Shown here: one piece after another, positions 2,788-22,053 of the stretch
Position numbering within the stretch: position 1 is the first letter of the stretch
Layout of the letters: the number at the start of each line of letters is the position of its first letter
From: Planctomycetota bacterium
GTDB lineage: Bacteria; Planctomycetota; Planctomycetia; Pirellulales; Lacipirellulaceae
Direction of reading: 5' to 3'
DNA length: 64,000 nt
NCBI GenBank assembly: GCA_024278955.1
Contig: JAJRSE010000051.1
Coordinates: 62,001 to 126,000 of the forward strand
Notes under the pieces: model-generated
The model's database searches: none
What the model saw: the letters and a program-made list of their open reading frames with translations, nothing else
What the model was told of the DNA's origin: nothing
Translations under genes and position numbers: made by a program

Positions 2788-3128
2788 TGTCTCTTCAAGC
2801 CACGATGCTCCGAACCGACGCGCTGCTTAGCCACGTTTGGATGGTGCGCACTTTCATTAAGCACTCCGAAGAAATCGAGGACGACCCGGAACTGAACGAC
2901 GTCCAGCGTACGCTTTACGACGCCATGCTATCGCTTGGCAGTGCTTGGCAAGCCCAAGATGCCGAAGCGTATCTCCGGCAGGCACGAAAGAAGCTCTCGA
3001 AGCTTCGCAAAGCGACCAACGATTTTGCGAGAATCCAGCCCGAGGTTTCGTCGCATACCAACTTCAAAATGGCCGTCGCTTCGCTGCAAAATGCCGTGGC
3101 GGCGATTGAAGAATTGTTGGGGGAATGA
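2787..3128 (+). CDS. Small helical hypothetical protein
   Basis: A 113-residue soluble, mostly alpha-helical protein (heptad-like spacing, e.g. LRQARKKLSKLRKATNDFA around residues 64-82) ending AAIEELLGE. No signal peptide, no membrane segment and no catalytic motif. The start ATG lies at the end of the left inverted-repeat arm and the TGA stop lies inside the right arm, so the gene exactly fills the interval between arms. Composition is amphipathic and acidic at the C-terminus. It may be a small regulator or adaptor; function not recognised. Confidence 0.65.
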   Translation: MSLQATMLRTDALLSHVWMVRTFIKHSEEIEDDPELNDVQRTLYDAMLSLGSAWQAQDAEAYLRQARKKLSKLRKATNDFARIQPEVSSHTNFKMAVASLQNAVAAIEELLGE

Positions 3129-3150
3129 CGAAACCCTCACAACTCACAAC
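3122..3150. repeat. Right arm of an inverted repeat around the 113-residue gene
   Basis: Sequence gggaatgacgaaaccctcac followed by aactcacaactccg. It mirrors the left arm at 2720-2787 and contains the stop codon of the enclosed gene. Confidence 0.6.
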
Positions 3151-3677
3151 TCCGCCGTCTCTTCATCCGCGAAATCGGCAAGCAGTTCGGGGAAACCAAT
3201 CGTCAGTTCGCTAAGTTTCGCCTGCGTGTTTCGATGGCCTTTGGGTAGCCGGGCGTCGGCTTGGGCTTTTTGCAGGATGCCATCGGCGATTATTTTGCTG
3301 GGCATGTCGCAGAGGTGGCTTTCGAGGGCGGCACGGATATTTTCCAACAAGTCGGCCACTTCTTCTGGGCGAAAAAGTTTCTGGTCGAACTTGGCGAACT
3401 GCTCGGGATCGACCCGCTCCAACAACCAGGCAGCCGCCCGCCAATGGGTGTTTGCCTTGCCTCGTAACGCACGCAGGGGTTCGAGCCGCGCTGAAAGTTG
3501 GGCGCTACGGAGCCGTTGGCCAAAGTCGGCATCGCGCTCGCCCTCGCGACGAATCGTCTTGTGGGTACAGCCGACATAGCGGGCAGCGAATTCAAGGGAA
3601 CAGCCTGCCGCCACAAGGGCACAAACCTCACGCTTTTTGGTATCATCCAGCGTACGTGGCCGTCCTGCGTTTGACAT
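3144..3677 (-). CDS. HTH protein resembling small terminase/homeodomain-like proteins
   Basis: A 177-residue protein. The N-terminal 60 residues form a helix-turn-helix of the homeodomain-like class: GRPRTLDDTKKREVCALV, then AGCSLEFAARYVGCTHKTIRR, with the second helix of the motif around residues 31-50. The rest is charged and helical with no nuclease motif. Similar HTH heads occur in phage small terminase subunits, but no large terminase, portal or integrase lies nearby, so a chromosomal DNA-binding role is equally possible. It is convergent with the preceding small gene. Confidence 0.65.
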   Translation of the reverse strand: MSNAGRPRTLDDTKKREVCALVAAGCSLEFAARYVGCTHKTIRREGERDADFGQRLRSAQLSARLEPLRALRGKANTHWRAAAWLLERVDPEQFAKFDQKLFRPEEVADLLENIRAALESHLCDMPSKIIADGILQKAQADARLPKGHRNTQAKLSELTIGFPELLADFADEETAEL

Positions 3678-3982
3678 ATTTTTCTGTCTCCTGGAAGCCC
3701 GCCGCCTGTCTTGGTTGACACATGCGACAAGAAGAATTTGAGGGTAAGGACGATTGCAAAGTTTGAAAAACCAAGGCCGTTTATTTTTGAACCACGGGGA
3801 AACGGCGGGAACAACGTAGGATTCTCGTTGTTTTCGCTGTTACGCCGTGGTTCCTTTTTTCCTGAGGTAGGACAGCGTGCTTTGAATGAAAAGACGCCAG
3901 GAAAACTTGAATGCACCGTAGCAAGAAGGCTGGCACAATTTCAATGAGAATCTTGTTGCTGGAGTAGGAACTTATTCACATC
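3678..3982. other. Intergenic stretch, nothing recognised
   Basis: About 300 nt between the 5' end of the HTH gene and the 3' end of queE. No protein-like frame, tRNA fold or strong repeat was seen. It presumably holds the promoter of the HTH gene. Confidence 0.5.
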
Positions 3983-4718: not shown

Positions 4719-5471
4719 TCATTCGTCATTCGTCATTCCAAACTTCCCTTGGTATCTGATGGGGTCGACGAGCCCCGCGTCTGCAAAACCTTTGAGACGT
4801 AATTGGCAGGCATCGCAGGTGCCGCAGCTGATGCCTTGGGCATCGGGGGCGTAGCAGGTGTGTGTCAAGCTGTAGTCGACCCCCAACTGCGTGCCACGGT
4901 TGATGATCTCTGCTTTGGTCATTTTAATCAATGGAGCGTGGATGCGAAAACGGAGTTGGCCTTCGACGCTGGCTTTGGTTGCAAGGTTGGCTAATTGCTC
5001 GAAAGCCTCGATAAACTCGGGACGACAGTCGGGGTAGCCGCTGTAGTCGACTGCGTTAACGCCGACAAAAATATCGGCGGCCCCAAGCACTTCTGCGTAT
5101 CCGAGGGCCAGCGAGAGCATGACGGTATTTCGAGCGGGAACGTAGGTGATCGGGATGCCAGCGGCCATCTGCTCTTCGCTGCGGCCTTGGGGGACCTCGA
5201 TATCGTCGGTCAGGGCACTGCCACCGAGAGTCGCAAGATCGATAGGCAAGACTTGGTGCCGCTCGACCCGGAGGGCTGCGGCAACTTCTTGGGCGGCTCC
5301 GAGCTCGAATCGATGCCGTTGACCGTAGTCGATGCTCAAGGCAAAGACCCGATAGCCTTCGTGCCGGGCGAGTGCCGCGGTCGTGGCCGAATCGAGTCCG
5401 CCCGAAAGCAGCACGACCGCCTTTTTTTCCGCCCGAGATGCCTTGGCAATTCCTTTTTCGTCATTCACCAT
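4719..5471 (-). CDS. queC: 7-cyano-7-deazaguanine synthase
   Basis: A 250-residue ATP-dependent enzyme that turns 7-carboxy-7-deazaguanine into preQ0. The PP-loop is [17 protein letters not shown] (residues about 19-35) and the C-terminal zinc-binding cysteines are in [17 protein letters not shown]. The last residues (GMTNDE) come from the gtcattc microrepeat separating it from queE, which suggests the original C-terminus was altered by the repeat. First gene of a queC-queE pair, divergent from queF. A 6-carboxytetrahydropterin synthase gene (queD) is not in the window. Confidence 0.93.
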
Positions 5472-5552
5472 TTGTAATTGCCCCTTGGTTATTTACCACG
5501 TCGCGTCATCATGGCACAATGTAAGGCCCGCTGAAAGGACACCCGACGATGA

Positions 5553-5921
5553 GTGACGACCATGAATGACTTCCGAAGTCTGCTAGAAACATTTGACAAC
5601 CAATTCCCCAAGCGGGATTACTGTATCGAAATCGTGTGCCCCGAATTCACCTCGGTCTGCCCCAAGACAGGCCAGCCCGACTTCGGTACGCTTACCTTTT
5701 CGTACACCCCCAGCCAAAAATGCGTCGAACTGAAGAGCCTGAAGTTCTATCTGCAAGCGTACCGTAACGAAGGCATCTTCTATGAGAATATCACGAACGT
5801 AATTTTCGACGACCTGGTCGCGGTGCTCGAGCCTCGCTGGCTCAAGCTTGTAGCTGCGTTCAATGCCCGAGGGGGGATTACCGAAACCGTGACCGTGGAA
5901 CACCACATTGCGACGAAATAA
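5553..5921 (+). CDS. queF: NADPH-dependent preQ0 reductase
   Basis: A 122-residue short-type QueF, which reduces the nitrile of preQ0 to preQ1. The thioimide-forming Cys lies in [12 protein letters not shown], and the substrate-binding segment is [23 protein letters not shown]. The GTG start at 5553 has AAAGGA about 13 nt upstream; an ATG at 5562 is the alternative. Divergent from queC across about 80 nt, so the three queuosine genes probably share one control region. No convincing preQ1 riboswitch was seen there. Confidence 0.93.
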
Positions 5922-5933
5922 GCAAGCTCCTTG

Positions 5934-5965
5934 CTTCTAAAACCTAACCCCTAAAGCCTATTTTC
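5934..5965. repeat. CCCCTAA-type repeat copy
   Basis: Sequence cttctaaaacctaaccccta followed by aagcctatttt. Related words occur at 28736-28757 (inverse orientation) and 29725-29760 around surE. Only the sequence similarity is claimed. Confidence 0.45.
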
Positions 5966-5975
5966 CAGGACAACT

Positions 5976-6989
5976 ATGCCAAACCCACCTCAAGTAATTC
6001 TTTCGGGCTTTGCCGACGAAGCGGCAAATCATAAAACGGCGATCGAACAATTCTCGGCTTTCGCAGCTCTGGGGTTGCAGTACTACAGTTTGCGTTTTGT
6101 CGACGTCGGCAGCGGTGTCAAAAATGTGATGCAGCTCACCAAGAGCGAAATCACCAAGCTACGCCATCTTGAAGATGAATATGGTATGAATGTCGCGTCG
6201 ATCGGCTCGCCCATCGGCAAGGTCAAGCTGCTTAACAAAGACGACGGCACAAAAAACCGATACGTACCGTTCAAGAAGTATCTGAAAACCGAAGTCAAGA
6301 AAGCTTGCGACCTGGCTCACGCATTCGAGACCAAGCTGATCCGCGGCTTCTCGTTTTATCACCCCCAAGGCACCGACCCTTGGAAGCACTTGCCGCAGGC
6401 GGTTGACCAGTTAGGCGAAATCGCCGAGATGTGTCATCGCAGCGACCTGACGTTTGGCCTAGAGATCGAAGCGAACCTGATCGGCCAAACGGGCCAGCTG
6501 ATGGCTGAGTTGCACCGCAAGGTCAACCATCCTGCGTTGGTCACAATTTTTGACGGTGCGAACATCGTTTGCCAAGGCTTCAACACGGCCGAGACGTACG
6601 AACAATATCCAGCCATGAAACCTAGCATGGGCTGGCTACATATTAAAGACTATCGGCCCCCAGCCGGGATGAAACGTACCACGCACGTTAACGAGGAGAT
6701 GCTCAAACATTTTGTCCCTGCCGACGAAGGCGACACCGGCCATGTGGCGATTCTTCAGGACTTTGCCAAAGAGATTCCTAAGCTCGAACGACGACTCAAA
6801 CGACGCGGAATCCCCGGCGTGATTCTCGACTTGGAGCCCCACCTGAAAGGCGGAGGCCAGTTCGGCGGCTTCAGCGGCCCTGACGGCATGGCAATCGCCC
6901 TGCAAGGACTTACCCGTGTGCTCGACTTCGTTGGCATCGACTACCACTTACGCGATTTCGACGATGTTAAGGCCGACCGCGGCTTCTAA
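5976..6989 (+). CDS. Sugar phosphate isomerase/epimerase-type TIM barrel protein
   Basis: A 337-residue cytosolic protein of the xylose-isomerase-like TIM barrel superfamily (AP endonuclease 2 fold). Visible family features are an N-terminal strand VILSGFADEA, LGLQYYSLRFVDVG, the metal-site strand GLEIEANLIG, VTIFDGANIV, WLHIKDYRPP with the His-x-Lys-Asp element, and VILDLEPHL. No signal peptide, unlike the exported relative at 55 kb. Substrate cannot be predicted. It is a single-gene unit between a CCCCTAA repeat and a hairpin. Confidence 0.8.
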   Translation: MPNPPQVILSGFADEAANHKTAIEQFSAFAALGLQYYSLRFVDVGSGVKNVMQLTKSEITKLRHLEDEYGMNVASIGSPIGKVKLLNKDDGTKNRYVPFKKYLKTEVKKACDLAHAFETKLIRGFSFYHPQGTDPWKHLPQAVDQLGEIAEMCHRSDLTFGLEIEANLIGQTGQLMAELHRKVNHPALVTIFDGANIVCQGFNTAETYEQYPAMKPSMGWLHIKDYRPPAGMKRTTHVNEEMLKHFVPADEGDTGHVAILQDFAKEIPKLERRLKRRGIPGVILDLEPHLKGGGQFGGFSGPDGMAIALQGLTRVLDFVGIDYHLRDFDDVKADRGF

Positions 6990-7041
6990 TCGTTCACGCG
7001 TGAGGGCCAACAGCCGAACCGCCACGCGGTCCGAGAGGTAG

Positions 7042-7061
7042 CGGAGGCAGGTGTGCCTCCG
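7042..7061. terminator. Hairpin between convergent genes
   Basis: Perfect 8-bp stem cggaggca/tgcctccg with a GGTG loop, between the isomerase (+) and the FHA gene (-). There is no long T-run, so it may be a repeat or a bidirectional stop. Confidence 0.4.
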
Positions 7062-7084
7062 TCTATTGATCGCGTGCTCCGACA

Positions 7085-10000
7085 TTACCCTCCGATTGGG
7101 AGTTGCTCATCCTCGACGGGAATCTCTGCGGGAGGTCCTCCGGACTGAGATCCTTGGAGAATTGCTTCGAGCAACACACCCACGACGCGGCTTCCCCAAA
7201 CCAGGGCGACCGCACCGGCGATCCAGCCGCCGAGCGCCGAGAGGCTCAGGTAGTCGTCGGTTGTGAGTAGCACGTAGGCTGCCAGCCCTGTTGCGATCAC
7301 GCAAATCAGGAGCTTGGAGAGTGCGGTTTCTGCGTACTGACGTTTATGGTGACTGGCAATTGCAGTTCGAGCAGAGCTATTGGCCAGCTCTCGCAGGGCT
7401 ACCATGTCGGTCGGCAAGGCCGGCTTTTGAGATGAATTTCTTAGGCTTTCCAAGTTCAGAGGCGCCTCGGTTTCAAAGTCGACATTGCTCTCTGAAGCAA
7501 CTCGCGCAACCGCAGCATCTACCGCGGCCACAGGATCTTTGTTCGCTAAATCCTCAGCTGGTAGCGAGGCAGAGACTTCTTCGCCGCCCGAACCACCACG
7601 AACACGCTCCATCATGCTCTGCATGTAAGCTTCGAGCGCGGCATCCTCCGATTCGTCATCAAGCCTGTCGGCAGTTGGCTCTGGCGAGACGATCGCTGTC
7701 GGTTGATTCTCTGCGAGGGGCGGTTGGCTGGTTGGCTCGTCTTCGGTGAATTCCCCGCCGTATTGTTCGATGAACGAAGGAGGAGTGAACTCCTCTTTTT
7801 CGACTTCTTCTTCGGCAACTTCTTCTTCAGCATCGGCAGAGGGATTTGCTTGGTCCACCCATACCGAAAGCTCTTGAAGCCGAGCAACAGCTGCGTTTGC
7901 GTCCTCCTCAGAGACAACCGGCTCCTCGTCGGGCGTTTCTTCTGCGACAGGGATCTCCGAATCGGCAATCGGCTCCTGCCACTCGTTTGCCGCTGGAGTA
8001 GTCGCCCGCTCGGTCAGCGATTCTTCTGCGGCAAGCAAACAAGATTTTGCCTCGTCCAAATCTTGCTGCGATTGTTGATAAAGCTGCTCGACTTGCTGAG
8101 ACTGAGCTCGCTCGTCGGCAAGCTCCTGACGGGCCCCCTCCAAATCGGCCGACAACCGCTCAACCAACTCCGACCGTTCTTCGCGTGTCGAAGCAAGGTC
8201 GGTTTTCTCCTCTTCCGAGGCCTTGGCCAATTCGACGGCTGCTTTCGCATCTCGATTGGCAGCAAGCACTTGTTCGCGTAGCGACTCAAGTTCTCCGCGT
8301 GCGGTTTCTAATGTTTCGGCCAGCTTGTCACGCTCTTGCTGAAGATCGCTATCCGCTAGGCTACTCTCGACCAAGTGTGCATCTTTCGACTCGAGCTCTG
8401 CTTCGAGCAAAGCCAACTTTGATTCTGCCGCGATACACTTCTCTTGCAATTGTTGGGTCTGATCGACCGAGTGTTGCAACTCGTCGCGAACTTTCTGCAG
8501 GTCGGTTTCGAGCTGCTCGGTCACGGCTCGGTGCTGCTCAAGCTCCGACTGCGCTTCGCTGCGGCGTTGGCCCAAGGACGCAAGCTCTTCGCTCAGCTCG
8601 ACGAGTTGTCGGTCACGATACTGCAAAGTCTCATGAAGATCTCGAATTTGGGATTCGTACTCAGGATGCTGGCCATCGATCTCGTCCCGTTGCCGGCAGG
8701 CCTCTTCCAGCTCTTTCTCAAGTCGTTGGCAGGTATCGATTTGATCGAACGCATCTTTTTGAAACGATTGCAGGCTTTCGCAAACTTGCTGGTACTCGGC
8801 CTGAATCTCTTCGATCCGAAGGTCACGCTCGGCCAGCGATTGTTCCCACTGCTGCTGGTGCTCGACATGTTCAGACTGAGCCGCTAACAGTTGGTCGCGT
8901 TGTTGCTGAAGTTCGTTTAGTTCCTGCTGAAGCAACTCGGCGATAGTCCTCTGTTCCGTACGAAACGCCTGCTCTTCCCGATCGCGTTCGTCAAGCGATT
9001 GTCGCCACTGCTGCTCTTGCTGCTGATGCTCAGCGTGTGCTGCAAGCAACCCCTCACGCTCTTCTTGAGCTTTTGCCAACTCCGCCTGAAGCTCCTCGAA
9101 GCGGGCCGTTTGTTCGGTGCCACATTCTTCTGCCGAAGCGGTCGCTGCTTGAGCTTGCGCCAATTCGTGTTGAAGATGACCAATCTGGTCGTCCCGTTCA
9201 CCAAGCCAAAGGGCCAGCTCTCCAATGCGGTGCTGCATCTCGGAACTGCTATCCGCAATTTGCTCGCGTTCTTTTCGCAATTGATCTAACTCGGTCTCGA
9301 GCAGCTTGCCTCGAGCCTCCTGTGCGGCTTCGTGCTCTTCAGCCAAAATTCTTGCCGACTGCGCCTTGTCTAACACGCCCTGAAAGCTGCTGAGGTGCTC
9401 GTCGCGTTCGCTGAGCAACTTTTCTAGTTCGACAACTCGTTGCAGATTCTCTTCGCCTTTGTTTGCAAGTTGCTCACGCATCGCTTGCAAGCGTTCGACC
9501 TCTTCCCGTAATTCCTTACTGTGAGTCGACTGCTCTTCGTTGCTTTGTATCGACTCGTCGACCGCTAGGCGTGCTGCTTCAAGCTCGCCTTCGAGCTGCT
9601 CGATACGCTGATCGCGTTCAAGAAGAGATGCCTCGGACTCGCCTTGGCTCTCCTGAAACCGACTCTTCGAGTCGCTCAACGCTTGACGTTCCTGTTCGGC
9701 TTGTTGCAGAGCTGATTGGAGTTCCTGAAATTCCTTGGTCTGTTCGGCGTTTCGTTCTTCCGCCGAAAGAATCTCGCAATGTACTTGTTCTAACTCGCGC
9801 AGAAGCTCGCCTATCCGTCCGTCGCGTGCGGCGTCCGCTGCCTCTCCTTTTGCTTGATTTCGCTGAAACTCAGCAATCGTTTCGTGAAATTTGCCCCGCT
9901 CCGACTGCAAAACTTCGATTTCTAAACGCAATCGATTGGCCAAATCGGCTTGCTCTGCGGCTTGGGCCTGAGCCGATTCGGTTGTCGTTTGAACCCGCTG

Positions 10001-16307: not shown

Positions 16308-16342
16308 ACATCAACAATCAAACATCCCACATCAAACATCAC
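16308..16342. repeat. Single AACATC-family arm
   Basis: cacatcaacaatcaaacatc then ccacatcaaacatcac, in the right-arm orientation, between the convergent MBL hydrolase and Prc genes. It overlaps the stop of the protease gene. No partner arm was seen nearby. Confidence 0.75.
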
Positions 16343-18495
16343 TTAGTACCAGCAACCCGATTCTGATCTAACAACTCCAGATAGTCTGCCGAAATCGAGA
16401 GCAGCTCCTCGTTGTACGGGCTCAAAGGAAAAACCGGACGATCGTTGTCCTGAAGATCTTCAAACATTTCCTCTTGTTCTTTCTCGGTGTTCAGCTTCTC
16501 TCGCTCTGCTAAGAACTCCTCTTTATTGAGCGTCACATAGGGATCTTTTTTTCGCTCGAGGTATCGTTCAATCCCGCGATTCACCTTGGCAAAATATTCG
16601 GAACCCTCTCGTCGTTTGGCCGATCGCTGCTTCAGCTGCTGAATAATATTGGCCGTCGCGTGACGATAGTTCGCGTGTCGCATGGGCATAATGCGATCGA
16701 ACGCCATGGCGTAGTCCAAGTCCGATTCGCCAACATCCCAATAGGACGTCTGCTGAGGCAGTTCCAAGTCGGAAACCACCCCGCGATTCTGAGTGCTGTC
16801 GCCGCTCGGACGATAGAACTTTTGGATTGTCATCTTCAGCGCGCCCCAGTTGGGTCGCGTAATTGGCGACACTCTCGGTCCCAACTCGACAAGCTGCTGG
16901 ACCGTCCCTTTGCCGTGGGTTGCACGGTCGCCGACCACGATTCCACGTCCATAGTCTTGAATCGCTCCCGCAAAAATCTCGCTCGCACTCGCGCTGAACT
17001 TGTTGATAACCACAATCAAAGGCCCATCCCAAACCATGCCACGGTCTTCGTCGAGGTAAGGCTGCACACGCCCATCGGGACCTTTCACTTGCACAACTGG
17101 CCCTTTGTCGATGAACAGCCCCGTTGCCTCAACCGACTCGGGCAACGAACCGCCGCCGTTAAAACGCAAATCCATGATTACCAGGTCGACGTTATCTCGA
17201 TTGAAGCCTTCAAGAATCCGTCGCATATCGCGAGCGGTGCTCTTGTAGTTTGGGTTGCCGTTGCGACGGCCTTCCATATCCATGTAGAAGCTCGGCAGGC
17301 TTAGCACGCCGATTTTGATGGTCGGGCCATCCTCAGCAATTTTTTGCTCGATCACTTCGGCGGTCGCCTCACCCTCTGTCGCAGGCGTCTCTTCGACTAA
17401 GTCGGAGCCATCGGCACGGCGGAGGATAACTTCCTGACGGGCTTCTTTGTCCTTGAGTTCGATTCGAGCACGAACGATGTCGTAGATCTTGCTTTCTGAT
17501 TTGTCGGCTGGCGTAACCTTCAAACGAACAATGGTCCCGGGCTCGCCACGGATCATCTTTACGACGTCGTTGATTTTCATGTTGACGATATCAACAAACT
17601 CGCTGTCGGTGCCTTCGGCTACGCCTGTGATGATATCTTCAAGTTCCAGGCGTCCATCTTTGTCAGCAGCCCCGCCGGGAACAATTTGCTTGACGATCGT
17701 TTCTCCATACTTCGACAGCAACGAAGCCCCGATGCCGTTCAATTCCAAACGCATTTGGATGTTGAAATTCTCGACCGTATTCGGAGACATGTACGTGCTA
17801 TGCGGATCGAAGCTCATCGTAACGGCTGTCAAAAACATCTCGAGCAGCTCGTCGCTGTCGGTTTGCTCTGAACTGCGGAGGATGCCCTTATATCGCTTAT
17901 GAAGGTTTTCTACCGCCTCGGCATATTCCAGCTCCTCGACCCCGGTCTGGTACAGGATGTCGTATTTTGCTTTCTTTCGCCACCGCTCGTCGGCCTCTTC
18001 TTTGTTTTTGGCATAAACCATTGCGTCGGGGTCGCGAATCATCTCTTCGTCGAGGGTAAAATCGTGTGGTTCGTCAAGAAGCTTTTGCCCTACGGCAACA
18101 CGTTCTTCAACACGCTGCAAAAAGACGTCGAAGATTCGTTTTGCGAGACGAACGTCCCCGTTTTTCAAGTAGTCGTCAATCGCATTTTTCTCGGCTGCGA
18201 ATTGATCGATATCGCTTTGTAGAAAAAAGAGTTTCAGCGAATCCAGACGCTCAAGAAACAACGTCAGCGCACGGCGAGAAATTTCGTCGTCGACTTTCAT
18301 CGTCGAAAGATGCTGGCGATTCATCAGCGAAGCCACCACAATCGAAATCCGCCGGTCCGCGGCCGTAGGGTCGTTCGGACGTGCCGAAACCAGCGTGGCA
18401 AACAGCCCTGCTCCGGCCGTGACAAGAATCAACAAGCTCAAAACAATTCGTCGAGAACGACGCAAACTTCCAACGCCTAGACGGGCAGATTTCAT
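16339..18495 (-). CDS. prc: Carboxy-terminal processing protease (S41, Prc/Tsp type)
   Basis: A 718-residue protein with an N-terminal membrane anchor or signal (LSLLILVTAGAGLFATLVSA), the long tail-specific-protease N-domain, a PDZ domain (GIGASLLSKYGETIVKQIVPGG, about residues 240-320) and the S41 catalytic domain. The Ser/Lys pair is visible as FSASASEIFAGAIQDYGRG and GKGTVQQL, with GGGSLPESV before it. Such proteases trim or degrade periplasmic proteins, including peptidoglycan hydrolases. It is about 30 residues longer than E. coli Prc. Single-gene unit. Confidence 0.92.
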   Translation of the reverse strand: MKSARLGVGSLRRSRRIVLSLLILVTAGAGLFATLVSARPNDPTAADRRISIVVASLMNRQHLSTMKVDDEISRRALTLFLERLDSLKLFFLQSDIDQFAAEKNAIDDYLKNGDVRLAKRIFDVFLQRVEERVAVGQKLLDEPHDFTLDEEMIRDPDAMVYAKNKEEADERWRKKAKYDILYQTGVEELEYAEAVENLHKRYKGILRSSEQTDSDELLEMFLTAVTMSFDPHSTYMSPNTVENFNIQMRLELNGIGASLLSKYGETIVKQIVPGGAADKDGRLELEDIITGVAEGTDSEFVDIVNMKINDVVKMIRGEPGTIVRLKVTPADKSESKIYDIVRARIELKDKEARQEVILRRADGSDLVEETPATEGEATAEVIEQKIAEDGPTIKIGVLSLPSFYMDMEGRRNGNPNYKSTARDMRRILEGFNRDNVDLVIMDLRFNGGGSLPESVEATGLFIDKGPVVQVKGPDGRVQPYLDEDRGMVWDGPLIVVINKFSASASEIFAGAIQDYGRGIVVGDRATHGKGTVQQLVELGPRVSPITRPNWGALKMTIQKFYRPSGDSTQNRGVVSDLELPQQTSYWDVGESDLDYAMAFDRIMPMRHANYRHATANIIQQLKQRSAKRREGSEYFAKVNRGIERYLERKKDPYVTLNKEEFLAEREKLNTEKEQEEMFEDLQDNDRPVFPLSPYNEELLSISADYLELLDQNRVAGTK

Positions 18496-18778: not shown

Positions 18779-19870
18779 TTATTCTAGCGCCGTTACGAGC
18801 TGCTGATCCCAGCGAGGAAACACGGCTCGCAAATCCAACCACAGCGCGTCCTGCTGCTCGCGGCCAACGATCACGGGGGAACAAGCCTGGAACCGGGCCG
18901 CAACTTTGGCCCGCATTCCATCAGCAAAACTCAATTTCAACGCCCAAGTTGGCCCCGCATATTTCACTTCGCCCGTATCGTACCAGGCCGAGTCGCACTG
19001 TGTCGGACGCGCTTCGGCGAGGAGATCGCTCTCTGCCATCAAGGGCGCCAAACGCTCGCAGCGTTGTTCAAGATTCTCCAGCGGAGTCGACAACAACTGC
19101 AACGCGGGAATCTTGTAAATTGCTTGATCCGCCGTTTGATAGATTTCTAGTGTTGCCGCCAAGGCCGCCAAGGTAAGCGGCTCCGCGATTCCATCCACCT
19201 CACACAACGGGCGATTCAGATCAGCAATCTGCTTGCGACTTCCCACTACGATGGCGCAGCGCGGCCCGCCCAATAAACCAGAACCCTCGCAGACCACCAC
19301 CTTGGTAGCCGAGGAGAGTCGCGTCTGAATCGTGTCGACCTGAGTTAAACCGAAGTCCGCCGGGTCAACGAGCCCAGCTTGGGCAACTATCTCAACCTTC
19401 TTTTCACCACTTTCGCGAACCACTTCTGCCACAGCCTCGAAACTCGACCCCACCCAAGCCGCCTCGGCCCCGGTCAGCTCGGTGAGCAAATGCTCAACTC
19501 GTACGGATAGCGCGTCGGGCGAAACTTGGTACTCACTAGCAAGCTGCATCATCTCGTGGACAGCCGCTTCGGCAAGCGGCGGCGCTGGCCACCGGTCGCC
19601 CCAAATGGCTCCCGTGGCATTGATGGCCGAATGGCTCTGTTCTGCTGGCTCCATCAAACGTCGCGCCAAACGCTCGGCCATCTGTTGGATCGAAGGAACG
19701 ACCCCTTGGGCTCCGCCTTTTTGCAAATTCGATTGCAACTCTTCGACAAATCCAGCCGCCCGTTTAGCAATCGTGGTTTGATTCACCCGATCGACAATCC
19801 GCTCCACAGTCGGATGCTTAAGCAGCTCGCTGATCGTGGGCAATTTCGGTAAAGAAGGTTCAGGCTTCAT
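18779..19870 (-). CDS. Degenerate SelA-like protein lacking the PLP lysine
   Basis: A 363-residue protein alignable to selenocysteine synthase (SelA, about 460 residues): N-terminal LPTISELLKHPTVERIVDRV, INATGAI, LLTELTGAEAAWV, then LLGGPRCAIVVGSRKQIADL and PLTLAALAATLEIYQ. In SelA the PLP lysine sits in SGDKLLGGPQ; here the equivalent is EGSGLLGGPR, so Lys is Gly. The central stretch between LVE-like and LLGGP elements is also about 90 residues shorter. It probably cannot make selenocysteine and may have been recruited as a non-PLP protein. No other sel gene and no SECIS-like element was seen. Confidence 0.8.
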   Translation of the reverse strand: MKPEPSLPKLPTISELLKHPTVERIVDRVNQTTIAKRAAGFVEELQSNLQKGGAQGVVPSIQQMAERLARRLMEPAEQSHSAINATGAIWGDRWPAPPLAEAAVHEMMQLASEYQVSPDALSVRVEHLLTELTGAEAAWVGSSFEAVAEVVRESGEKKVEIVAQAGLVDPADFGLTQVDTIQTRLSSATKVVVCEGSGLLGGPRCAIVVGSRKQIADLNRPLCEVDGIAEPLTLAALAATLEIYQTADQAIYKIPALQLLSTPLENLEQRCERLAPLMAESDLLAEARPTQCDSAWYDTGEVKYAGPTWALKLSFADGMRAKVAARFQACSPVIVGREQQDALWLDLRAVFPRWDQQLVTALE

Positions 19871-19995: not shown

Positions 19996-20205
19996 TCATT
20001 CGTCATTCCCCGATTTCATCCCCACATCGCTAGGCGAGGGAAAAGGATCGTTCTTGGCCCGCTTGACGATCTTTCGCTCTCCCTGGGTTGCCGTCAGGCC
20101 GGGAAGCATCGAACCCGATTGCCAGCTTTGGCAACCTGTCGCGATAACAACAATCGCCAGTCCGAGCATGAGAAAAAATCGGGAAGCCAATGGACACCTC
20201 GGCAA
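19996..20205 (-). CDS. Small lipoprotein
   Basis: A 69-residue protein with a lipoprotein signal peptide and lipobox (LAIVVIATGCQS, Cys about residue 25), then a short basic region GERKIVKRAKNDPFPSP. The last residues (SGNDE) derive from the gtcattc microrepeat, so the natural C-terminus may be shorter. Lies just downstream of the exported LPKIT-repeat protein on the same strand, with which it may form an operon. Function unknown. Confidence 0.6.
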   Translation of the reverse strand: MPRCPLASRFFLMLGLAIVVIATGCQSWQSGSMLPGLTATQGERKIVKRAKNDPFPSPSDVGMKSGNDE

Positions 20206-20266: not shown

Positions 20267-20824
20267 CTACGGCTTGGGGCGTGCTTGGCTCATGAACTCG
20301 CCTACCGTCTGTGGCACGTCAGGCTCCTTGGGCGACCTCGTGGTAAGTCGCTGCCAGAAAGAAGGACCTGAGTTCGAGGAGGCTCGCGTTGCGCCACCCG
20401 AACTGCCCTTCCCCTGAAAAACATTGAACATATCTTTGGTGCCTTCCCAGGCATTCTTCGTACCGGCAGAAAGTTTGCTGAAGCCGGCAATAAATGGCGA
20501 AAGCAATGCCGGACTGTCGCCGTTGGCTTGCGAAGGCCATAGCGCCGGCAGCTTGGGAAGCGTGATCGTTGGCATCGTGATCTTGGGCAAGGTGATTTTT
20601 GGCAGTTGAATGTTAGGCCAACCGACTTGCTTGACCCCTTCGGCAAGCTCGCCGTCGCTAAAATTCCCATCTGCCTGCGTGACTTGGCTAGGCGCAGAGG
20701 CAGACTTCTCGAAAATTTGGGCATGCGCCACGGGCGACATGGCAACCCAATGCAGAAATAGCACTGCGCCAACTCTTGAAAATCGACAAAGCACCAAGGC
20801 GAGATCAGCTCGTTGCATGGCCAT
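20267..20824 (-). CDS. Exported protein with LPKIT-like repeats
   Basis: A 185-residue protein starting at 20824, where AGGAGG lies 9 nt upstream; longer frames have no such site. A signal peptide (VGAVLFLHWVAMSPVAHAQ) is followed by a short region of repeated five-residue units LPKIT, LPKIT, MPTIT, LPKLP (about residues 76-95), then a low-complexity Ser/Gly segment. The repeats may form a short extended beta structure. No catalytic domain. Confidence 0.7.
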   Translation of the reverse strand: MAMQRADLALVLCRFSRVGAVLFLHWVAMSPVAHAQIFEKSASAPSQVTQADGNFSDGELAEGVKQVGWPNIQLPKITLPKITMPTITLPKLPALWPSQANGDSPALLSPFIAGFSKLSAGTKNAWEGTKDMFNVFQGKGSSGGATRASSNSGPSFWQRLTTRSPKEPDVPQTVGEFMSQARPKP

Positions 20825-21001
20825 TTTATTGATCCTCCTGCCAGAAGCGAGGAGTCCTGTGTTTGCTGGCTCGGCTGCGTTTTCGCAACCAGGAAAAATA
20901 GGGAGGTCGAAGTGTTTCAAAATGACGAATTCCCGTCTAGGCGGATTTTGGCAGGAGCAGGGGGCTCCCAGGGGCTAGTATTCCATCGCTGCTTGCTTTT
21001 C

Positions 21002-21234: not shown

Positions 21235-22053
21235 TTGCAGAAATTCACTGAAACGATCGGCTTTATTGGTGCAGGACGAATGGCAACGGCCCTGGCTCGC
21301 GGGTGCGTACAGTCAGGACTCGTCGAGGCAGGACAAGTGCTAGCAGCCGATCCTACCCCGGAAGCGCTCAAAAACTTTGCCGAGCAAACCGGCGGCGCGA
21401 AACTCGCTAGCGACAATCTCGAAGTCCTCGCCAAGGCTCAAATCATCGTGCTAGCCGTCAAACCCCAAATCATGCCCCAGGTACTCGACGCTATCGCTGA
21501 ACATGTGACCGAGAAACACCTGCTCGTTTCGATTGCCGCGGGAGTCACGCTTGGCACACTAGCCTCGGGGCTGCCAGCAGGCACACGGCTCGTGCGTGTG
21601 ATGCCCAACACCCCGTGCCTCGTCGGATTGGGCGCAAGCGGCTACGCTCGCGGGTCGTCTGCCAGCGAAGACGATGCGAGCCGCGTGCAGCAAATTTTAG
21701 AAAGCGTGGGCATCGCGTTTGAGTTGGACGAACCGTTGCTCGATGCCGTGACAGGACTCTCGGGCTCGGGACCGGCATTTATTTATCGAGTAATTGAAGC
21801 CATGGCCTCCGGAGGCGAGGCGGGCGGGTTATCGCCCGATTTGGCCGTCAAACTTGCGGCACAAACGGCCCGAGGCGCTGCCGAGATGGTGTTACGCACC
21901 AGCCAAACGCCTGCCGAGCTACGCCAACAAGTCACCAGCCCCGGCGGCACAACCGTCGCGGGCCTCGAAGCCTTAGAAAAACTCGCAGGGCCCGCCGCTT
22001 TCCAAACTGCCGTTGAAGCCGCTACCAGTCGCTCAGTAGAATTAGGCCGTTAG
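21235..22053 (+). CDS. proC: Pyrroline-5-carboxylate reductase
   Basis: A 272-residue enzyme for the last step of proline synthesis. Rossmann motif GFIGAGRMATALARG at the N-terminus; the C-terminal dimer domain shows GLSGSGPAFIYRVIEAM and SPGGTTVAGLEALE. TTG is the apparent start (no ATG fits the family N-terminus). Single-gene unit. Confidence 0.94.
   Translation: MQKFTETIGFIGAGRMATALARGCVQSGLVEAGQVLAADPTPEALKNFAEQTGGAKLASDNLEVLAKAQIIVLAVKPQIMPQVLDAIAEHVTEKHLLVSIAAGVTLGTLASGLPAGTRLVRVMPNTPCLVGLGASGYARGSSASEDDASRVQQILESVGIAFELDEPLLDAVTGLSGSGPAFIYRVIEAMASGGEAGGLSPDLAVKLAAQTARGAAEMVLRTSQTPAELRQQVTSPGGTTVAGLEALEKLAGPAAFQTAVEAATSRSVELGR

Follow-up and report, generated by a model that had tools for sequence, protein, structure and literature searches.

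A lysine-less descendant of selenocysteine synthase that Pirellulales most likely keep for a role other than selenocysteine synthesis

Results

The window (the whole 64,000-nucleotide stretch of DNA that was analysed) encodes on its reverse strand, at positions 18779-19870, a 363-amino acid protein, here P0001, whose reading frame has an ATG start and no internal stops. Pfam SelA (PF03841) matches residues 149-350 only, at 9e-24 and with 84.6 bits against a cut-off of 22.8, and the best sequence matches among solved structures are the SelA chains 8uzw and 3w1h. Judged by these matches, P0001 is a SelA homologue by descent. On TIGR00474, the NCBIfam equivalog model for SelA, it scores 112 bits, far under the cut-off of 267.9. 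Its assignment as a SelA-derived protein without the PLP lysine draws on the ORF, the Pfam and NCBIfam matches, the orthologues and pairwise dN/dS. No signal peptide was seen in P0001 by eye, and its AlphaFold model, made with four sequences (P0001 and three orthologues), was poor, with a mean pLDDT of 47.7.

The gene has conserved neighbours on both sides. Downstream lies a tail-specific protease gene (prc, S41; 16339-18495, reverse strand), recognized by locus comparison and Pfam. Upstream, on the same strand, we read a small lipoprotein gene of 64 amino acids with a TTG start and the lipobox ATGC (19996-20190; cluster 20) and then a gene for an exported protein with MPKIT/LPKIT repeats (20267-20920; cluster 3, 22 loci). 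Neither of these two proteins has a Pfam match, and both are linked to the locus across the order. Beyond them, proC (21235-22053, forward strand) is a divergent landmark in the locus comparison; in relatives, the ancestral selB-selA locus likewise has proC on its flank.

An earlier sequence-only reading of this DNA had proposed that the SelA motif SGDKLLGGPQ, with its PLP lysine, is replaced here by EGSGLLGGPR, and that about 90 central residues are missing. Alignment confirmed the first point: EGSGLLGGPR (residues 195-204; 19259-19288, reverse strand) occupies the former lysine loop, with Gly at the lysine position. Aligned with SelA of A. aeolicus (3w1h), Lys285 corresponds to G198, Asp284 to S197 and Ser282 to E195, and the selenophosphate-binding Arg86, Arg312 and Arg315 correspond to Ala96, Glu224 and Gly227; the functions of the SelA residues follow PMC4607533. 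The INATG motif (residues 83-87; 19610-19624, reverse strand) is retained, and LHTGLGR, which contains Arg86 and comes next after INATG in SelA, is lost. Against the true SelA of the same genome (L001), there is a single gap of 88 residues (L001 172-259), whose junction aligns to approximately 19396-19411 (reverse strand). Both proposed changes are therefore real, but the reading understated their extent, as other pocket motifs are gone too. The replacement of Lys by Gly and the central gap are common to intact orthologues of independent genomes, so neither is due to a sequencing error or a missing base.

Judged by PF12390 and by conservation, the N-terminal 75 residues (19646-19870, reverse strand) are the counterpart of the domain with which SelA binds tRNA-Sec (Pfam Se-cys_synth_N). 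PF12390 matches 21 of the 32 family members, at best with 2.3e-7, and does not match P0001 itself at E 0.1. At the other end, the family alignment has a conserved C-terminal motif, LDLRAVFPRWDQ (18803-18838, reverse strand). By established knowledge of PLP enzymes, loss of the pocket motifs excludes ordinary SelA chemistry, and P0001 can probably no longer bind PLP or make selenocysteine (Sec). In SelA, the dimer-dimer contacts and those to the PLP ring lie in the stretch deleted here, according to the residue roles in PMC4607533; with these interface residues gone, P0001 would be unable to build the tRNA-binding decamer of SelA.

Seven pocket motifs are nearly unchanged in active planctomycete SelAs, and all or nearly all of them are gone from Lys-less members of the family. 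Those in the window's own family, f1, retain LPS..ELL.HP, INATG, GGPxCGI and the C-terminal LDLR..FPR.D. The lysine is absent in every relative of P0001's clade; in other lineages Glu, His, Phe, Leu, Tyr, Ala or Cys stands in its place. Intermediates that have the lysine and a damaged pocket were also found, namely L117 (G048), L111 (G208), L154 (G252), L108 (G044) and L181/L182 (G259, G277). Among the intermediates tested, neither SelB nor tRNA-Sec was detected in G048, G252, G044 and G259; G208 has a second, SelB-linked SelA. The central deletion, observed also in L017 (G039) and L024 (G031), is common to genus g9 (87 residues). In G039 it seems to have arisen separately; the sister genomes of G039 have the full-length protein.

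The dN/dS ratios calculated by NG86 for Lys-less pairs in the window's genus are 0.07 (0.099/1.479) and 0.10 (0.203/1.943), and those for active SelA of f1 are 0.12 (0.199/1.607) and 0.10 (0.211/2.218), with some pairs, including P0001 and its nearest relative, saturated at synonymous sites. Selection on the gene is thus not relaxed. Purifying selection supports the earlier view that this intact frame with conserved ends is probably expressed.

Within the protein, the mean pairwise identity of the C-domain is equal, at 0.45-0.48, in active SelA and the compared Lys-less groups. For the N-domain, active SelA has an identity of 0.33-0.43, and the short g1 and main full-length f1 Lys-less groups have 0.56-0.62; for the pocket, the values are 0.83-0.89 in active SelA and 0.52-0.59 in these two Lys-less groups. 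In the central part, identity drops from about 0.66 to 0.26 before the part is lost by deletion. Thus, in g1 and the main f1 group, constraint has moved toward the N-terminal domain and away from the pocket. The ratio of N- to C-domain identity is 0.74-0.92 in active SelA and 0.93 to 1.35 in other Lys-less groups, where the shift is weaker (f1 group b has 0.93, the most diverged forms 1.00). The N-domain is only slightly more positive, with a net charge of +2 versus 0.

The Lys-less protein is present in 38 of the 44 genomes of f1, in one of them (G033) as a contig-end fragment. It is short in genus g1 and has open frames of 420-600 amino acids in most others of f1. The family extends through the order Pirellulales, with very diverged forms in complete f15 genomes. 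Sec status in the 44 genomes was scored by SelB over its cut-off or a strong tRNA-Sec (>60 bits); 13 genomes have SelB, 13 have a strong tRNA-Sec and 16 have either. The two markers agree in all of 28 chosen genomes (9 with, 19 without). Sec machinery is present in 13 of the 38 holders, and SelB and tRNA-Sec were both undetected in at least 25; these include the one-contig genomes G001, G003, G009, G011, G035 and G040, and some of the remainder are incomplete assemblies. The co-occurrence with selB and tRNA-Sec that would be expected of SelA is not seen in the Lys-less family. Because most holders have no detectable tRNA-Sec, this RNA cannot be the general ligand of the protein, and the suggestion that it binds a tRNA(Sec)-like RNA found no support, though conservation of the N-domain did rise, so that some RNA or protein ligand is conceivable.

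Following the earlier proposal to look for genuine SelA, SelB, SelD and tRNA-Sec elsewhere in the genome, we found all four on contig C95: tRNA-Sec (2514-2609), selD (2999-3910), selB (5215-7203) and an intact selA (about 7260-8630) that carries SGDKLLGGPQ. This complete and compact selC-selD-selB-selA cluster (C95:2514-8630, L003) is on a separate contig from P0001. The window's organism thus does not depend on P0001 to make Sec. Among active SelAs, that of C95 groups in another clade (support 99*), whose members come from several families; this suggests that Sec decoding may have been regained via a transferred cluster. The mixed origin of Sec machinery in some planctomycetes (PMC4807772) fits regain by transfer.

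The locus in Sec-using relatives runs from a divergent proC through the exported protein, the lipoprotein, selB and selA to g15. This ancestral order is seen most fully in G053 (L209), and G064, G140 and G153 agree in the parts covered; single loci among these four have some flanks missing or uncovered. The window's family has efp and proC (divergent), followed by the exported protein, the lipoprotein, the SelA-like gene, in some cases g15, and prc. No selB remnant is detectable at the window locus. Since the same flanks are kept and selB is gone, P0001 is most simply the ancestral selA in its own place. Thus, the earlier description of P0001 as a non-PLP SelA paralogue holds insofar as it is a non-PLP relative of SelA; judging by synteny, it probably did not arise by duplication alongside a functional SelA, being instead the selA of an ancestral operon from which selB was lost. 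The exported neighbours and the periplasmic-type protease hint at envelope functions, though gene order may only reflect history. The g15 genes (for example, L064:6167-7183) encode a secreted protein without family assignment directly 3' of SelA or SelA-like genes in many Pirellulales. In the window's genome, g15 was found neither at the locus nor by search, and a search of genomes without g15 at the locus, which had no positive control, found nothing elsewhere.

In trees, a branch with weak support (86/91) separates the inactive core (27 rows) from the rest. Because the placement of this clade relative to ancestral-locus SelA is weak, the evidence for its descent from that locus is synteny. 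The degraded f17 SelAs (L111, L181 and L182) fall inside active SelAs with bootstrap values of 99/97, and a single inactive clade was not rejected in the AU test (p 0.227). Repeated inactivation of SelA is thus likely, albeit not proven.

Discussion

Most likely, Pirellulales keep the Lys-less protein intact for a role other than Sec synthesis. This part of the earlier proposal of a new role is supported; RNA and protein are both possible ligands. It is very probable that P0001 descends from a selA that was resident in an ancestral selB-selA operon. The lineage would then have lost Sec decoding, with selB and tRNA-Sec going and selA staying behind. The PLP and selenophosphate pocket of the stranded selA would have decayed, 88 residues of the central lobe would have been deleted in the window's genus, and the protein would have survived under purifying selection in a non-catalytic form that may bind RNA or protein through its N-terminal domain, perhaps as a putative dimer. 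We consider this explanation as a whole, an orphaned resident selA turned non-catalytic protein under purifying selection, to be probable, and a non-enzymatic role in particular to be highly probable. Our best guess is a non-catalytic binding role mediated by the N-domain and the remaining fold. RNA as the ligand is a tentative idea that we would not favour. The broader proposal of an order-wide, non-catalytic RNA-binding protein derived from SelA, in which the N-domain recognizes another tRNA or structured RNA and the protein acts as a regulator or chaperone, possibly arisen more than once, is speculative.

Of the other explanations, a new enzyme, in which the scaffold gained another activity without PLP, is unlikely. 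Within the former pocket region, the glycine-rich GGPxCGI loop and INATG are indeed preserved best, but no new polar constellation is conserved, the columns that reach at least 85% conservation across the family hold mostly Gly, Pro, Leu and Ala, and the central lobe that framed the pocket is deleted in the window's genus. True duplication of the Sec-cluster SelA is quite improbable: although both genes coexist in the window's genome, L001 belongs to a different, multi-family clade of active SelAs and is compactly clustered with selC, selD and selB, and the Lys-less gene occupies the locus that elsewhere holds selB-selA. A slowly decaying selA pseudogene, kept by chance or by operon structure, might be expected from the stepwise erosion of the pocket and from the deletion of the central lobe in g1 and g9 and, apparently separately, in G039. 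We rejected it as very improbable on dN/dS, which is about 0.07-0.10 rather than near 1, and on the intact frames, free of internal stops, in 38 of 44 f1 genomes (one a contig-end fragment); in addition, N- and C-terminal motifs are conserved across the whole order. Finally, a modulator of active SelA or tRNA-Sec, acting as a hetero-oligomer or tRNA-Sec chaperone, would account for the retained tRNA-binding N-domain and for the 13 f1 holders that also have Sec machinery, but is hardly credible given the 25 or more f1 holders, one-contig genomes included, with neither SelB nor tRNA-Sec detected, and given that the SelA dimer-dimer interface lies within the deleted region.

P0001 can be compared with known proteins. 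Like SelA (TIGR00474; 3w1h), it has a homologous N-domain, INATG, the GGP loop and the C-terminal domain, and it stands at the selA locus; unlike SelA (3w1h), it has no PLP lysine, no equivalents of Asp284, Ser282, Arg86, Arg312 and Arg315, and none of the 88 central residues that include the decamer interface. D-glucosaminate-6-phosphate ammonia lyase (7lc0) and similar proteins belong to the SelA superfamily and have no Sec role, and their match to the profile is weak (1.6e-9). These SelA-fold proteins are PLP enzymes. Archaeal MJ0158 (2aeu) keeps the PLP lysine, unlike P0001. SelA homologues in organisms without Sec, for which new functions were suggested by Zhang et al. 2006 (PMC1794560), resemble P0001 in possibly having a new function, as does MJ0158. 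Methanococcal SelA homologues are cited in PMC4607533 as having no affinity for tRNA-Sec.

The closest contrast is with Helicobacter pylori SelA (HP1513), which, according to Cravedi et al. 2015 (PMC4607533), persisted when Sec was lost, keeping the PLP residues but not the N-domain. The Pirellulales protein is the reverse, with the N-domain kept and the pocket lost, and so does not follow the H. pylori pattern. The dN/dS of H. pylori SelA in the same source is about 0.24-0.33 versus about 0.07-0.10 here, by different methods. No Lys-less forms are described in the accessible parts of PMC4607533 or PMC1794560, and we found no description of a Lys-less SelA in the open-access literature, which omits most subscription papers.

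Lys-less proteins risk annotation as selenocysteine synthase although they would be unable to make selenocysteine, so that the presence of SelA can mislead surveys of selenium use. Pirellulales provide a gradation of SelA in genomes of known Sec status: functional enzymes, proteins with a damaged pocket and the lysine still in place, and Lys-less and truncated forms. The question left open in PMC4607533 of whether a second SelA function takes over upon Sec loss thereby becomes testable from the side opposite to H. pylori. Were the RNA-binding reading true, a translation enzyme would have turned into an RNA-binding regulator or chaperone. A different kind of lysine loss was seen in L058 (G030:C106), where K is changed to Q (SADQMIGAC); this SelA belongs to a separate SADKLIG subfamily (L142, L143) and is largely intact otherwise.
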